Source: Anaerolineales bacterium (GTDB lineage: Bacteria > Chloroflexota > Anaerolineae > Anaerolineales > Villigracilaceae). Taken from it: a DNA stretch of 64,000 bases. The position numbers and the translations under genes are program-made. Location of the stretch: NCBI GenBank assembly GCA_919902735.1, contig CAKKRM010000164.1, forward strand, positions 1 through 64,000. The letters run 5' to 3'. Below the pieces are notes generated by a model. It was given only the letters and a program-made list of their open reading frames with translations. It made no database searches and was not told the origin of the DNA. The first letter of the stretch is position 1. Each line of letters begins with the position of its first letter. This document shows, piece by piece, positions 28,729-53,640 of the stretch.

Positions 28729-28840
28729 CTGCGGGACAATCTGTATGTAGGAGGTGGTATGCACTAAACACAACGCTCCAGTTCTCTGTTTTGAATGTCC
28801 AAACTGATTTGGTTGTGTTTCAAAAGAGTTGAAGGATGAA

Positions 28841-28893
28841 CCGTCCCGAAGGTTTTCTCGAAGAATTTGATCGTTTTTTAAACCTTCGGGACG
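28841..28893. repeat. Palindromic repeat family A, copy 4
   Basis: CGTCCCGAAGGTTTTC to AAACCTTCGGGACG; 14-bp arms with one A/T-rich loop. Lies in the leader of the subtilisin gene. Confidence 0.9.
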
Positions 28894-28945
28894 GTTGTTT
28901 CAACTGAAATGAAACACATCCAACCGATTTCCCTAGGAGAAAAAC

Positions 28946-30350: not shown

Positions 30351-30384
30351 TTCCGCCGCAGGAATTTCCTGCGGCGGAATTTTT
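30351..30384 (+). terminator. Rho-independent terminator
   Basis: TTCCGCCGCAGG-AATTT-CCTGCGGCGGAA followed by TTTTT; 12-bp perfect stem after the first subtilisin gene. Confidence 0.93.
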
Positions 30385-30533
30385 ATGCAGGTTTGTTCAT
30401 TTTTCTAAAATCCAGGCTCTCTCTTGCGCTTTTTCCTTTCGATGCCTGTCTTTCTCCTGTTTGATCTACCATCTGAATTTCAAAAACTCCATCTTGCATT
30501 AATGACATAAATTTGTAATAATAGAAAGTGCGT

Positions 30534-30614
30534 TCAAAAAGGCTAACTCATCGTGAGGTGGGGGCGCAAAGTTATGGGTCTGTACGACTGTACAGACCGC
30601 CAGACTACTGAAGG
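30534..30614 (+). ncRNA. Cyclic di-GMP-I (GEMM) riboswitch
   Basis: The conserved order of a class I c-di-GMP aptamer is visible: GGCTAACTCA, a short hairpin, GGGGGCGCAAAGTTATGGG, a perfect second hairpin GGTCTGTA/TACAGACC, then GCCAGACTAC. It lies directly after a promoter and is followed at once by a terminator hairpin whose 5' arm overlaps the aptamer's 3' end. A ligand-controlled transcription switch for the downstream protease gene is therefore likely; ON or OFF cannot be told by eye. Confidence 0.75.
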
Positions 30615-30640
30615 CAATTATCTTCCTTCGGTAGTTTTAT
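30604..30640 (+). terminator. Riboswitch expression platform (terminator)
   Basis: ACTACTGAAGG-CAATTATCTT-CCTTCGGTAGT followed by TTTATTTG. The left arm is part of the aptamer's closing region, so the two structures probably exclude each other. Confidence 0.8.
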
Positions 30641-30738
30641 TTGTTTAAAAGGAGGTGATGTGTATCGAATGAGCTGAATTCTTCTACCAGGACTACTGAA
30701 CATAAAAAAAACCAAAACTGTAGTGAGGAGAATTTTCT

Positions 30739-33279
30739 ATGAAAGCACGTTGGATTAATGCAATCTTGATCGTTATGATGCTTGCTGTGGGAATCGTACC
30801 TTCGGTTTCTGCTGATTCAGGCGGCCCGCTTACTCCTGTTTCTCCGCTGGTTTCCGCTGAAACCGGGGAAATGACGGATGAAACGCCAAACCTTTGGTTT
30901 GTAGAGTTGTCTGGCATGCCAGTATCAGAGGGAAATACCTCATCATCGGTGGAATTGGAACATAAAAAATTCCGTGATGAGGCGAAAAAAGAAAAGATCG
31001 AATATAAAGAAGAACATAGCTATGGCAGTTTGTGGAACGGTTTTTCCGTTTCCGCTACAACTGCTGAACTTGGAAAACTGAGCCGCCTGCCTGGAGTTGT
31101 AGCGATTTATCCGGTTATGGTCGTCTCTGTGCCTGAGACCTATACTTCCTCCCTTGACCCTGAACTGTTTACTGCTTTAGCCATGACCGGCGCGGATGTT
31201 GCCCAGTCTGAGTTGGGTTATACAGGCAAAGGCATCAAAGTGGCGGTGATGGATACTGGTATTGATTACGATCATCCTGATCTCGGCGGTTGTTTTGGTC
31301 CGGGCTGCCGTGTTGTCATGGGTTGGGACTTTGTCGGTGATGACTATAATGCCGATGATACTTCTCCCAGCTATAACCCGGTTCCCTCCCCCGATCCTTT
31401 CCCGGATGACTGCAACGGCCATGGTACTCATGTGGCTGGCATCATCGGAGCAAGCGGCGCTGTGACAGGCGTTGCCCCTGAAGTAACCTTTGGCGCGTAC
31501 CGTGTCTTTGGTTGTGAAGGCTCCACTACTGATGATGTTATGCTGGCTGCCATGGAGCGCGCCTACGCGGATAAAATGCAGGTGCTCAATATGAGTATTG
31601 GCTCTGCTTTTGAATGGCCCCAGTCTCCAACCGCTGTAGCCGCTTCCCGCCTGGTGAAGAAGGGCATGGTTGTGGTGGCTTCCATCGGTAATAGCGGCGC
31701 AAATGGCTTATATTCTGCTGGCGCCCCCGGCCTTGGCGAAAATGTGATTGGTGTGGCTTCTTTCGATAACACCCACAACGTGGCTTCTGTCTTTGAGGCA
31801 AACGGCAGGGACATTGGTTATTTCTCCATGTCTTTCTCGGGACCCGTACCCACTTCCGGCTCGCAAGAAGTTGTATATGTTGGACGTGCCTGCACTGCTG
31901 ATCTGCCGCTTTTGGCTAACCCAGCGGGCAAAGTAGCCTTGATTGTGCGCGGCGCATGTACCTTCGGCCAAAAAGCCGCCAACGCGATCAATGCCGGCGC
32001 CAGCGCTGTTATCATTTACAACAGTTCCCCTGGCCTCTTCAGCGGCACTCTGGGCGCGCCGATCGGCGACGGCAGTGTTCCAGTTGTCAGCATTTCAGGG
32101 ACAGATGGATTATTCTTGCGCGCGCAAGCAGCCCCGGCCTTCATGACTTGGACTGACAGGCTCGGTTCCTTCCCCAACCCCACTGGCGGTTTGATCTCTT
32201 CCTTCAGTTCCTATGGGCTTTCCCCTGATCTGGCCCTCAAGCCTGACATTGGCGCTCCCGGTGGCAACATTTATTCAACCTATCCGCTTGAAGAAGGCGG
32301 TTATGCCACTTTGAGCGGCACCTCCATGTCTTCTCCGCATGTGGCTGGCGCTGTGGCGCTATTGCTGCAATCTGCGCCGAAAACCAAGGCGAAAGATGTG
32401 CGTTCCATTTTGCAAAGTACCGCCCAGCCTGCCGATTGGTGGGGCTTCCCCGGAGCCGGTTATCTGGATAGCGTCAATCGCCAGGGCGCCGGTATGCTTA
32501 AAATAGATAGCGCCATTCTGGCATCGGCCACAATCAAGCCTGGGAAACTGTCCCTGGGTGAAAGCCAGAACGGCCCGGTTACTGTGGAGCTGGAAATCGA
32601 GAATAACAGCGAAACAGCCGTTACATACGATTTGTCCTATGAAAACGGCCTTACCACCAGCGGAGTGATCACACCGGACTTCTGGGATTCCTATGCAACT
32701 GTCGCTTTCAGCGAAGCAAGTGTGACGCTCAACAGCGATGAGGAAGCGGAAATTTACGCAACGATCACCGCGCCTGCTGAGCCTCTTCAAGGTCAATATG
32801 GCGGATGGATCGTTTTCACCCCGCGTGATGGCGGACTCGCGTACCGCGTGCCGTTTGCCGGCTTTGTCGGCGATTACCAATCCATTGAGGTGTTGGCGAA
32901 TCCCTTTGGCCTCCCCTGGCTGACAGATCAAAACCTGAACGATGCGACAACCTTTACACTCGCCGATGGAGACCTGCCGTACTTCATCGTACATCTCGAT
33001 CATCAGTCACGTTTGTTCAAGATGGAAGCTTTCAAGGCCTCCAATGGTAAATCCATAGGCTCGATCGTGACGCTGGACTACATGATCCGCAACAGCACAA
33101 CCACCGGCTTCTTCGCATTTCCATGGGATGGCACAACCACCAAAGGCAAGAAAGAATTTACTGCGCCTGACGGCCAGTATTACGTAGTGATTTCCGTGCT
33201 TAAGGCGTTGGGCAAATCCGACAACCCCGCAGATTGGGAAACCTGGACCTCCCCAGTCTTTACCCTGGACCGCCCGTAA
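30739..33279 (+). CDS. Large secreted subtilisin-like protease with PA domain
   Basis: This 846-residue exported protease has a signal peptide (about 1-25), an I9-like propeptide (about 50-135), and an S8 domain with Asp in AVMDTGIDYDHPD (about 172), His in HGTHVAGIIG (about 231) and Ser in SGTSMSSPHVAG (about 530). A protease-associated (PA) domain is inserted at about 370-475 (VGRACTADLPLL...GKVALIVRGACTFGQKA). Beta-rich Fn3-like C-terminal domains (about 595-730) and a FlgD-like Ig end (WDGTTTKGK...APDGQYYVVI) follow. The layout resembles lactocepin-type cell-envelope proteases. Its mRNA leader holds a c-di-GMP riboswitch, so its synthesis probably follows the motile/sessile switch. Confidence 0.93.
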   Translation: MKARWINAILIVMMLAVGIVPSVSADSGGPLTPVSPLVSAETGEMTDETPNLWFVELSGMPVSEGNTSSSVELEHKKFRDEAKKEKIEYKEEHSYGSLWNGFSVSATTAELGKLSRLPGVVAIYPVMVVSVPETYTSSLDPELFTALAMTGADVAQSELGYTGKGIKVAVMDTGIDYDHPDLGGCFGPGCRVVMGWDFVGDDYNADDTSPSYNPVPSPDPFPDDCNGHGTHVAGIIGASGAVTGVAPEVTFGAYRVFGCEGSTTDDVMLAAMERAYADKMQVLNMSIGSAFEWPQSPTAVAASRLVKKGMVVVASIGNSGANGLYSAGAPGLGENVIGVASFDNTHNVASVFEANGRDIGYFSMSFSGPVPTSGSQEVVYVGRACTADLPLLANPAGKVALIVRGACTFGQKAANAINAGASAVIIYNSSPGLFSGTLGAPIGDGSVPVVSISGTDGLFLRAQAAPAFMTWTDRLGSFPNPTGGLISSFSSYGLSPDLALKPDIGAPGGNIYSTYPLEEGGYATLSGTSMSSPHVAGAVALLLQSAPKTKAKDVRSILQSTAQPADWWGFPGAGYLDSVNRQGAGMLKIDSAILASATIKPGKLSLGESQNGPVTVELEIENNSETAVTYDLSYENGLTTSGVITPDFWDSYATVAFSEASVTLNSDEEAEIYATITAPAEPLQGQYGGWIVFTPRDGGLAYRVPFAGFVGDYQSIEVLANPFGLPWLTDQNLNDATTFTLADGDLPYFIVHLDHQSRLFKMEAFKASNGKSIGSIVTLDYMIRNSTTTGFFAFPWDGTTTKGKKEFTAPDGQYYVVISVLKALGKSDNPADWETWTSPVFTLDRP

Positions 33280-33298: not shown

Positions 33299-33340
33299 TT
33301 CAGGCTGGCAGGTTTTTCCTGCCAGCCTGAACCTTTTTAA
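33299..33340 (+). terminator. Rho-independent terminator
   Basis: TTCAGGCTGGCAGG-TTTT-TCCTGCCAGCCTGAA followed by CCTTTTT; a very strong perfect stem. Confidence 0.95.
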
Positions 33341-42510: not shown

Positions 42511-43641
42511 ATGGTTGTTGAGCCCAGTCGAGATATGGATAGCTTCGCCTTCATCATTCATCCCATCGATCCCAAGCGCGATGTCAGCCGCAAGTTCCCG
42601 TTTTTAGGAAAGGCGCTTTCAGAAAGACAGATCGATTTTTTCTCCACCTTCTTTCCCCCCGTTTATATTTCGGAGATCGAGGGCATTACATCCCAGGCTA
42701 CGGGCAAAACCATCAAAGGCTGGTTCATTGCCTGCCCGTACACCCCGCGCCGCATGATGCAGTTGCCTGAGCGCACGGTCTATAATAAAATTATCCAAAC
42801 TGGGCGCATGGCGGAGAAACTCGGCGCGAACATTCTTGGTCTCGGCGCGTTCACTTCAGTGGTTGGCGATGCGGGCGTAACGATTGCGAACGCATTGGAT
42901 GTACCCGTTACCACAGGCGACTCTTTCACCATTGCCATGGCTGTGCAAGCCATACGGGATGCGGCCAAAGTGATGGATATAAAAATGGCAGATGCGACGG
43001 TGGCCGTCGTGGGCGCCACGGGAGCGATAGGACGCGTCTGCTCCGCGCTGTTGGCTGGGGAGGCCGCCCGGACATTGCTCGTGGCCCGGGATGAGAAAAA
43101 ACTCGAAGCCTTGAGAGACAGGCTCCAGATTAAGACGCGAAGCGAGCTTGTCATCAGCACGAAGATGGATGTTTTAAAGGATGCGCAATTGATTTTAACG
43201 GTTACAAGTTCCATTCAGGATGTCATCCGCCCGGAACATTTGCAGCCGGGCAGTGTGGTTTGCGATGTGGCGCGCCCCCGTGATGTTTCTGCAATGGTGG
43301 CGGCAGTCAGAGATGATATATTAGTGATTGATGGCGGTATGGTGGATGTGCCAGGCCCCGTGGATTTCCATTTTAATTTCGGCTTTCCGGATGGCAAGGC
43401 GTATGCCTGCATGGCAGAGACGATTGCACTGGCCTTGGAAGGCCGTTTTGAAGATTACACGATCGGCAGGGAGATTACGCTGGAACGTGTGCAGGAGATC
43501 ACCGCGATCTCGGAGAAACATGGGTTTCGCATGAGCGGTTTCCGCTCGTTCGAGCGTGAAGTAACCGAAGAACAAATTGAAGCCGTTCGACATAATGCCC
43601 GCAATGGGAAGCGACGCGCTTACAAAGCGTTGCACGCATGA
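42511..43641 (+). CDS. Acyl-ACP-reductase-like dehydrogenase
   Basis: This 376-residue protein resembles cyanobacterial long-chain acyl-[ACP] reductase. It has LGLGAFTSVVGDAGVTI near residue 110 (like the LGGFTSII segment), a Rossmann motif GATGAIG (168-174), and C300 in YACMAETIALALEGRFEDYTIGREI, which aligns with the thioester-forming Cys region of that enzyme. That enzyme makes fatty aldehydes from acyl-ACP. Activity here is inferred. ATG 42535 (MDSFAFIIHP) is an equally good start because homologues begin near there. Confidence 0.72.
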   Translation: MVVEPSRDMDSFAFIIHPIDPKRDVSRKFPFLGKALSERQIDFFSTFFPPVYISEIEGITSQATGKTIKGWFIACPYTPRRMMQLPERTVYNKIIQTGRMAEKLGANILGLGAFTSVVGDAGVTIANALDVPVTTGDSFTIAMAVQAIRDAAKVMDIKMADATVAVVGATGAIGRVCSALLAGEAARTLLVARDEKKLEALRDRLQIKTRSELVISTKMDVLKDAQLILTVTSSIQDVIRPEHLQPGSVVCDVARPRDVSAMVAAVRDDILVIDGGMVDVPGPVDFHFNFGFPDGKAYACMAETIALALEGRFEDYTIGREITLERVQEITAISEKHGFRMSGFRSFEREVTEEQIEAVRHNARNGKRRAYKALHA

Positions 43642-43732
43642 GACATGCGTAATCAGATTAGAATTAAGCTGTGTACCCGCAATTTCCATCAAAACGTTTC
43701 GAAAATTTTGCGGCAAGCGGCAGGAGGCTCAT

Positions 43733-44638
43733 ATGAGTAATGCTCGCCTTTTGGTAGTGGAAGACGATATCGATATCGCAAACATGTTGAAGATCTATTT
43801 TACGGGTCTTCAGTATGATGTGGATGTTGCGAATCGCGGAAAGGACGCCCTGGATAAAACCAAGCAGGTCCTGCCGCATTTAATCGTGCTGGACATCATG
43901 CTGCCCGACATTGACGGGTACGAAGTCTGCCGCACCTTGCGCACCAGCACACGCACCAGCCATATCCCGGTCATCTTCCTGACCCAAAAAGATGAACGCA
44001 GCGACAAACTGCAGGGTCTTGAACTCGGCGCGGACGATTACATCACCAAGCCTTTCGATATTGAAGAATTGAAACTGCGCGTGCAGGGAGCCATCCGCCG
44101 TTCGGAACGGGAAAGCCTGACCGACCCGCGCTCCGGTCTGCCCGCAGGGCGTTTGATCGAAGAGCAGCTGCGCCGCATCATTCGTGAGGAGAAATGGGCG
44201 CTGCTGGATGTGCGCATCAATAACTTTGAAGCCTTCAAGGATGTGTATGGCTTTGTGGCAGGCGACGATGTGATGCGTTTTGCCGCCATGCTGATCGGCG
44301 AGGTGGTGGATGAGTTGGGCACAACCAGCGATTTTATTGGTCACGCGGGAGGCGACAACTTCATCATCATCACCACGAACGAGGCCGCGCCGAACATTCA
44401 AAAGAAACTAAAAGATCGCTTTGCCGTGGAAGTGCAAAGCCACTATAATTTTATCGACCGCCAACAGGGTTTTATCCAGGCGCCCAAATCGGAAGGCGGC
44501 GTGGAAAAGGTGGGTTTTATGACTTTCTCAGCGGGAATGGTTTCGCCGAGCCTGCATTCGTTCGCCGATATTCGTGAGATCACTGAACTTGCGGCTGAAG
44601 CTCGAAGACAGGATGCGGCGGCCGCCTCCACCGCATAA
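43733..44638 (+). CDS. Response regulator with receiver and degenerate GGDEF-like domain
   Basis: This 301-residue protein has a receiver domain (VVEDDIDIANMLKIYF, phospho-Asp in VLDIMLPDIDGYE, Lys in YITKPFD) and a C-terminal domain resembling GGDEF. Its signature, GHAGGDNFIIIT, has N for E, so cyclase activity is unlikely. It may bind c-di-GMP or act as a scaffold. CAGGAGG precedes ATG 43733, which is preferred over 43577. It lies 15 bp before the giant kinase gene and could be one of its targets. Confidence 0.87.
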   Translation: MSNARLLVVEDDIDIANMLKIYFTGLQYDVDVANRGKDALDKTKQVLPHLIVLDIMLPDIDGYEVCRTLRTSTRTSHIPVIFLTQKDERSDKLQGLELGADDYITKPFDIEELKLRVQGAIRRSERESLTDPRSGLPAGRLIEEQLRRIIREEKWALLDVRINNFEAFKDVYGFVAGDDVMRFAAMLIGEVVDELGTTSDFIGHAGGDNFIIITTNEAAPNIQKKLKDRFAVEVQSHYNFIDRQQGFIQAPKSEGGVEKVGFMTFSAGMVSPSLHSFADIREITELAAEARRQDAAAASTA

Positions 44639-53495: not shown

Positions 53496-53505
53496 CATTT
53501 CACAA

Positions 53506-53598
53506 TTGAACGGGGAGCCTTTTCGAAAGGCTGAGAGGAGCGTGAACGCGCTCGACCCGCAACACCTGATCTGGTTAATACCAGCGGAGGGATTTTCT
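53506..53598 (+). ncRNA. TPP (thiamine pyrophosphate) riboswitch
   Basis: The THI-element is clear: CGGGGAGCC, a variable hairpin, GGCTGAGAGG, GACCCGCAACACCTGATCTGG and GTTAATACCAGCGGAGGGA. These include the TPP-binding GCTGAGA and CTGATCTGGTTAATACC blocks. A terminator follows, so high TPP should stop transcription of the thiamine kinase and transporter genes. Confidence 0.96.
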
Positions 53599-53610
53599 CA
53601 TTAAGCCTGC

Positions 53611-53640
53611 AAACATCCTCCGCCAGAGGATGTTTTTTAT
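53611..53640 (+). terminator. Terminator of the TPP riboswitch
   Basis: AAACATCCTC-CGCCA-GAGGATGTTTTTT. It lies between the aptamer and the kinase start. Confidence 0.92.

Follow-up and report, generated by a model that had tools for sequence, protein, structure and literature searches.

A predicted c-di-GMP-ON riboswitch, with a terminator that overlaps its aptamer, ahead of a secreted subtilase gene in the Chloroflexota

Introduction

Cyclic di-GMP is the bacterial "settle down" signal, and the riboswitches that respond to it are best known for controlling genes of motility and matrix. The closest system described for a secreted protease is Cdi-1-12 of C. difficile, a class I c-di-GMP switch on the secreted metalloprotease ZmpI (CD2830) that acts as an OFF switch (PMC6200980), and the original prediction for the locus reported here, in which motility or matrix genes are the usual targets, therefore stands only with that qualifier. 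Terminators that unfold with c-di-GMP have been documented by SHAPE for Bc1 of B. thuringiensis (PMC11218506). In the class I aptamer G20, A47 and C92 contact the ligand, and A23 of P2 is highly conserved and is absent from the list of ligand-recognition residues (PMC3764141). The 5′ leader of cry3A of B. thuringiensis contains a Shine-Dalgarno (SD)-like sequence, designated STAB-SD, at which translation is not initiated (PMC4113751). Here we describe a leader that resembles each of these in part.

Results

The protease gene and its surroundings

The window, the whole 64,000-nt stretch of DNA that was analysed, is part of contig C164 of a 4.26-Mb draft genome. The PA-domain subtilisin named in the original prediction is indeed encoded there, as a Peptidase_S8 protein (PF00082, 196.7 bits) in which Pfam identifies an I9 propeptide, a PA domain as an insertion and a Fn3-like domain, and the translation has the triad motifs DTGID, HGTHVAG and GTSMSSPH of an S8 subtilase and a hydrophobic N terminus. 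As the next gene is on the other strand and a probable terminator follows the ORF, the protease mRNA is probably monocistronic (Table 1). Sites similar to the promoter-like sequence, TTGC..TATAAT, are located ahead of the aptamer in the orthologs L040, L042 and L043, and in the window the -35 hexamer matches at 3 of 6 positions; as the sigma-70 scan reported no match there, the site is suggestive only.

Table 1. Features of the protease locus, in window coordinates
Feature	Position	Strand	Evidence
Intrinsic terminator 3′ of the upstream subtilase gene, parting that gene from the riboswitch unit	30351..30379	+	13-pair stem then TTTTT (terminator scan)
Promoter-like site TTGCAT-17-AATAAT, upstream of the aptamer	30494..30522	+	Read from sequence
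c-di-GMP-I riboswitch aptamer; G20, A47 and C92 kept, A23 to U	30531..30612	+	RF01051 covariance match
Intrinsic terminator hairpin; 5′ arm 30603-30614, U-rich tail to 30645	30603..30636	+	Sequence, folding, compensatory changes
Distal Shine-Dalgarno-like AAAGGAGGTGAT, 79 nt ahead of the protease start codon; followed only by a GTG frame of 5 codons	30648..30659	+	Sequence, survey
Proper Shine-Dalgarno of the protease gene, GAGGAG	30725..30730	+	Read from sequence
Signal-peptide coding stretch, DNA-level homology with M6 proteases L060 and L048	30739..30813	+	Alignment against shuffles
Secreted subtilisin-like protease, S8 + PA + I9 + Fn3-like, 846 aa	30739..33279	+	Pfam domains, ORF list
Probable terminator, inverted repeat and T run 3′ of the protease gene	33301..33329	+	Read from sequence

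The leader of the neighbouring upstream subtilase gene (P0002, 28946) was considered as the site of a decayed aptamer, and this was rejected as there is no Rfam support. Between AGGAGGTGG near 28757 and its start codon, this leader contains a dispersed inverted-repeat (MITE-like) element (28802-28930), many copies of which are present in the same genome and in G065. Elsewhere in the window there are a TPP riboswitch (53501-53609, 73.6 bits) upstream of the ORF at 53630 and, inside ORF 43577-44638, a weak and partial GGDEF match (44120-44404, 42 bits). Profile searches of the genome identified an RNase J-type protein and 17 GGDEF stretches over the cut-off.

A class I aptamer with one unusual residue

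A covariance search of the whole window with cmscan, the check proposed with the original prediction, returned exactly one c-di-GMP-I aptamer, a full-length match (1-87) to RF01051 whose 57.3 bits exceed the gathering score of 35 (E 1.4e-8, or 3.5e-11 when the short stretch alone is scanned), and this confirms, at the level of sequence and structure models, the class I assignment. Six further c-di-GMP-I aptamers are encoded in the genome, the seven scoring from 43 to 81 bits. Alignment and a survey of positions (Vc2 numbering) place the ligand-contact residues G20, A47 and C92 in the window aptamer, P1 of which has only about 4 bp. Position 23, which is A in 112 of 114 aptamers, is U in the window copy and in no other. 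As A23 is not among the ligand-recognition residues (PMC3764141), membership of RF01051 is kept with caution; a U at so highly conserved a position could mean that the aptamer is weakened.

The terminator shares a strand with the aptamer

The original prediction extended from 30534 to 30640, almost exactly the aptamer plus a terminator, and the hairpin that it anticipated is readily apparent when the sequence is read and folded, with arms GACTACTGAAGG and CCTTCGGTAGTT followed by a T-rich tail. The simple terminator scan did not list this hairpin, probably because its loop is longer than 8 nt. Most of the 5′ arm lies inside the 3′ end of the aptamer, whose last 10 nt, GACTACTGAA, also begin the terminator stem. 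In the minimum-energy fold of the ligand-free leader the terminator is formed and P1 and lower P3 are opened; forcing P1 and lower P3, the aptamer-constrained state, costs 7.4 kcal/mol without ligand, a gap that could be bridged by tight ligand binding and the co-transcriptional order of folding. In the window, the terminator and the ligand-bound aptamer therefore compete in folding for one strand, and in all 19 overlap-type loci folded at least 7 of the last nucleotides of the aptamer enter the terminator. Across these loci, terminator pair 4 is U-A in 13, C-G in 5 and U-G in 1, and pair 5 is G-C in 18 and A-U in 1, the last being a double change of the window itself. The U-A to C-G and G-C to A-U changes are compensatory, as a working stem would be expected to show.

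Because aptamer and terminator are mutually exclusive, the predicted sign, on which the original prediction was silent, is ON with c-di-GMP. In the absence of ligand, the aptamer 3′ strand GACTACTGAA would pair with CCTTCGGTAGT, and the resulting terminator would stop transcription ahead of the protease gene. When c-di-GMP is bound, the 3′ strand would be held by P1 and lower P3, the terminator would be blocked and the secreted subtilase made, so that high c-di-GMP would result in extracellular proteolysis. An antiterminator formed by the terminator 3′ arm and a copy of GACTACTGAA near 30691-30700 was rejected, as by eye it is not kept in L038, and no second structured element was found after the terminator, the fold of 30612-30760 being no more stable than shuffled sequences (z 0.06).

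Orthologs and the wider survey

Among 56 other genomes of the genus, 6 encode an ortholog of the protease, and in five of these there is an upstream aptamer (G065, 96%; G016, 71%; G033, 62%; G021 and G072, 61%), in every case overlapped by a terminator. In the sixth (G020) the leader is cut by a contig end, as recorded for L041. The loci share one genus and L043/L056 and window/L038 are close pairs, and hence they are not independent. L045, an ortholog outside this set with a protein that is 69% identical, has no detectable aptamer even at a relaxed threshold (Rfam E up to 5), and its leader keeps AAAAGGAGGTGA. P2- and P3-like arms, CCCATCGTAAGGTGGG ... CACCAGATTGCTGA, with a changed core, are present at L045:2800-2960, and suggest that this leader may contain a decayed or altered aptamer.

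Aptamer loci were surveyed in 61 genomes, the downstream genes being called and clustered and representatives scanned with Pfam, and the 107 aptamer-gene pairs from relatives were combined with 5 from the window and its orthologs. The targets in these 112 pairs include about 22 sortase-like, 17-18 RuvB, 15 S8, 5 S1 and 4 M6 proteins and others; about 19 pairs have a TasA-like small protein with a signal peptidase-like gene, the likeness to TasA being one of size, N terminus and neighbour as these proteins have no Pfam match. An energy-based scan located a terminator inside the aptamer end in 19 of 24 pairs with a protease (S8, S1 or M6) versus 3 of 88 others, and a laxer scan gave 20/24 versus 7/88 (Fisher p 1e-12, although with heuristic start calling and related genomes the p values of this survey overstate independence). 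Four S8 loci (L083, L090, L124, L136) are of the downstream terminator type, lacking both the overlap and the distal SD described below. On the aptamer tree the overlap label needs 2 changes, versus a mean of 20.6 for shuffled labels (0 of 500 shuffles as low), and the S8, S1 and M6 aptamers are intermixed, in a tree made from few columns and with weak inner support.

Other layouts were apparent in the survey. In TasA-like loci (L062, L079, L084, L094 and others) a terminator is positioned 19-29 nt downstream of the aptamer, and in 18 of 19 a GCCUGGC-like 5′ arm is complementary over 7-9 nt to the aptamer sequence GCCAGGC, with marginal results in single-locus shuffle tests. These loci are predicted to have an antiterminator layout and to be OFF switches, the reverse of what is predicted for the proteases. 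Tandem or triple c-di-GMP-I arrays precede ruvB, an unexpected target (17-18 loci), and some REC/BcsQ-like and MBOAT genes; examples are G000:C315:9138-9402 (L063), L095, L104, L108, L110 and L126. Many such arrays have the pattern A20, A20, G20, from which the first two aptamers may prefer cGAMP, making a two-signal array possible. The ligand-contact position 20 is C at L064, at four sortase-like loci (L091, L117, L123, L148) and at six RuvB loci (L131, L135, L138, L142, L143, L150).

A distal Shine-Dalgarno-like element

At most of the protease loci an AAGGAGG with no start codon close by is located 68-122 nt before the true start. A distal SD of 7 or more nt is present at 19 of 24 protease loci versus 3 of 88 others (p 4e-14, for an association that was noticed and counted in the same data set). 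It was considered as the start of a conserved leader peptide, and this was rejected as start codons are not enriched, an ATG, GTG or TTG following GGAGG by 3-11 nt in 3 of 18 loci where shuffling predicts 4.9. Of the seven AAAGGAGGTGA sites in the genome, two others are each located about 75-95 nt ahead of a lipoprotein-like gene that has an SD of its own and lacks a visible riboswitch. The distal SD is thus tied to some exported genes rather than to the riboswitch.

Apparent copies of the leader ahead of unrelated genes

In G008, a segment of 239 bp is 98% identical between the S8 locus L054 and the locus L055, whose downstream gene belongs to no Pfam family. This segment reaches at least 117 bp beyond the 5′ end of the aptamer, and so includes the promoter, and it extends downstream to AGGAGG, where the similarity ends; one copy is at a contig end and misassembly is possible. 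The window SD and signal-peptide DNA also align with those of the M6 loci L060 (score 49, versus a mean of 15.7 and maximum of 28 for shuffled sequences) and L048 (35, versus a shuffled mean of 17.0), whereas the mature proteins belong to different families. With the 239-bp repeat ahead of two different genes and the S8, S1 and M6 aptamers intermixed, there appears to be a control cassette common to unrelated exported enzymes. The window leader would be one copy, with promoter, aptamer, overlapping terminator, distal SD and sometimes the start of the signal peptide, of a cassette that would serve exported S8, S1 and M6 proteases across the genus.

Discussion

We consider it quite likely that the window contains a single c-di-GMP-I riboswitch with a self-overlapping terminator, ON for the protease, in a leader that is one copy of a genus cassette with a STAB-SD-like distal SD. 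The same switch could act in the opposite sense, as at ZmpI, with c-di-GMP promoting the terminator and the protease shut off in sessile cells. Most class I switches of C. difficile, that of ZmpI included, are OFF (PMC6200980), and OFF is also predicted for the TasA-like loci of this genus, but in all overlap-type loci the terminator 5′ arm is the aptamer 3′ strand itself, a separate antiterminator is neither needed nor seen, and we regard this alternative as improbable. We give about as little credence to the window copy being a decaying riboswitch that does not bind c-di-GMP and leaves the protease constitutively low or high: the A23U change is unique to it, its score is middling among those of its genome and one ortholog has no recognisable aptamer, but the contact residues are kept, P2, P3 and the terminator are intact and the compensatory A-U at pair 5 is the window's own. 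Bc1 shows that a class I aptamer combined with terminators can give little response in vivo (PMC11218506), which also counts against a functioning switch in the window. A different ligand, whether 3′,3′-cGAMP or the one bound by the GGC-type variant (RF03167), seems very improbable. RF03167 is the best model for the orthologs L038, L042, L043 and L044, probably because a short P3 is common to these and to that model, but its consensus has G where these orthologs and the window have A47, and for the window itself this variant was rejected at 54.1 bits against a cut-off of 59. Aptamers with A20, the change known from cGAMP switches, are present elsewhere in the genus, but the window has G20.

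For the distal SD our leading guess, and the most likely role, is that of STAB-SD: it would act as a ribosome-binding roadblock that stabilises the read-through mRNA. It could instead bind ribosomes for a very short leader ORF, or serve as a standby site, and in the window and L038 a GTG 4 nt after GGAGG does open a 5-codon frame. This we think rather unlikely, given that start codons at such positions are no more frequent than expected by shuffling and that the element also precedes the two lipoprotein-like genes without a visible riboswitch. More broadly, a transferable cassette may have been copied ahead of S8, S1 and M6 proteases and a 5′-nucleotidase, forming a c-di-GMP-ON exo-enzyme regulon in which a ribosome stationed at the distal SD protects the read-through mRNA, and to which the matrix-type, TasA-like genes of the genus have a predicted opposite sign; we offer this tentatively, as a possibility that falls somewhat short of an even chance. 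If true, secreted proteolysis of three catalytic types joins the sessile programme in these Chloroflexota, and a riboswitch platform has spread as a cassette with a possible mRNA-stabilising element. As protease and TasA-like genes of the same genus have opposite layouts, the rule for the sign lends itself to a direct test in vitro.

The window aptamer has the sequence and structure model, GNRA tetraloop (GUGA) and G20/A47/C92 of the Vc2-type RF01051 riboswitch, but differs in having a short P3 arm, U23 and a terminator made from its own 3′ strand. The terminator is predicted to open with c-di-GMP, as those of the class I aptamer Bc1 do in SHAPE, but in Bc1 there are two of them, the RBS is trapped in the bound state and the gene controlled is mcpE (PMC11218506). 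Like STAB-SD of cry3A, the distal SD is an SD-like leader sequence, and an RNase J-type protein is encoded in the genome; start codons are not enriched behind it, and the window copy has its 5-codon GTG frame. It differs in being downstream of a riboswitch terminator, and in the Chloroflexota, and the stabilisation is putative. In the part of the literature covered, no paper was found in which a subtilase is placed under a c-di-GMP riboswitch in this way, an absence that is weak evidence. Class I control of a secreted protease has already been described for ZmpI, where the switch is OFF and serves a single unrelated metalloprotease (PMC6200980), whereas the arrangement here is predicted to be ON and is common to S8, S1 and M6 proteases. 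As far as the literature examined shows, this predicted ON sign, the self-overlapping platform of three protease types, the association of that platform with a distal SD and its cassette-like spread are new.
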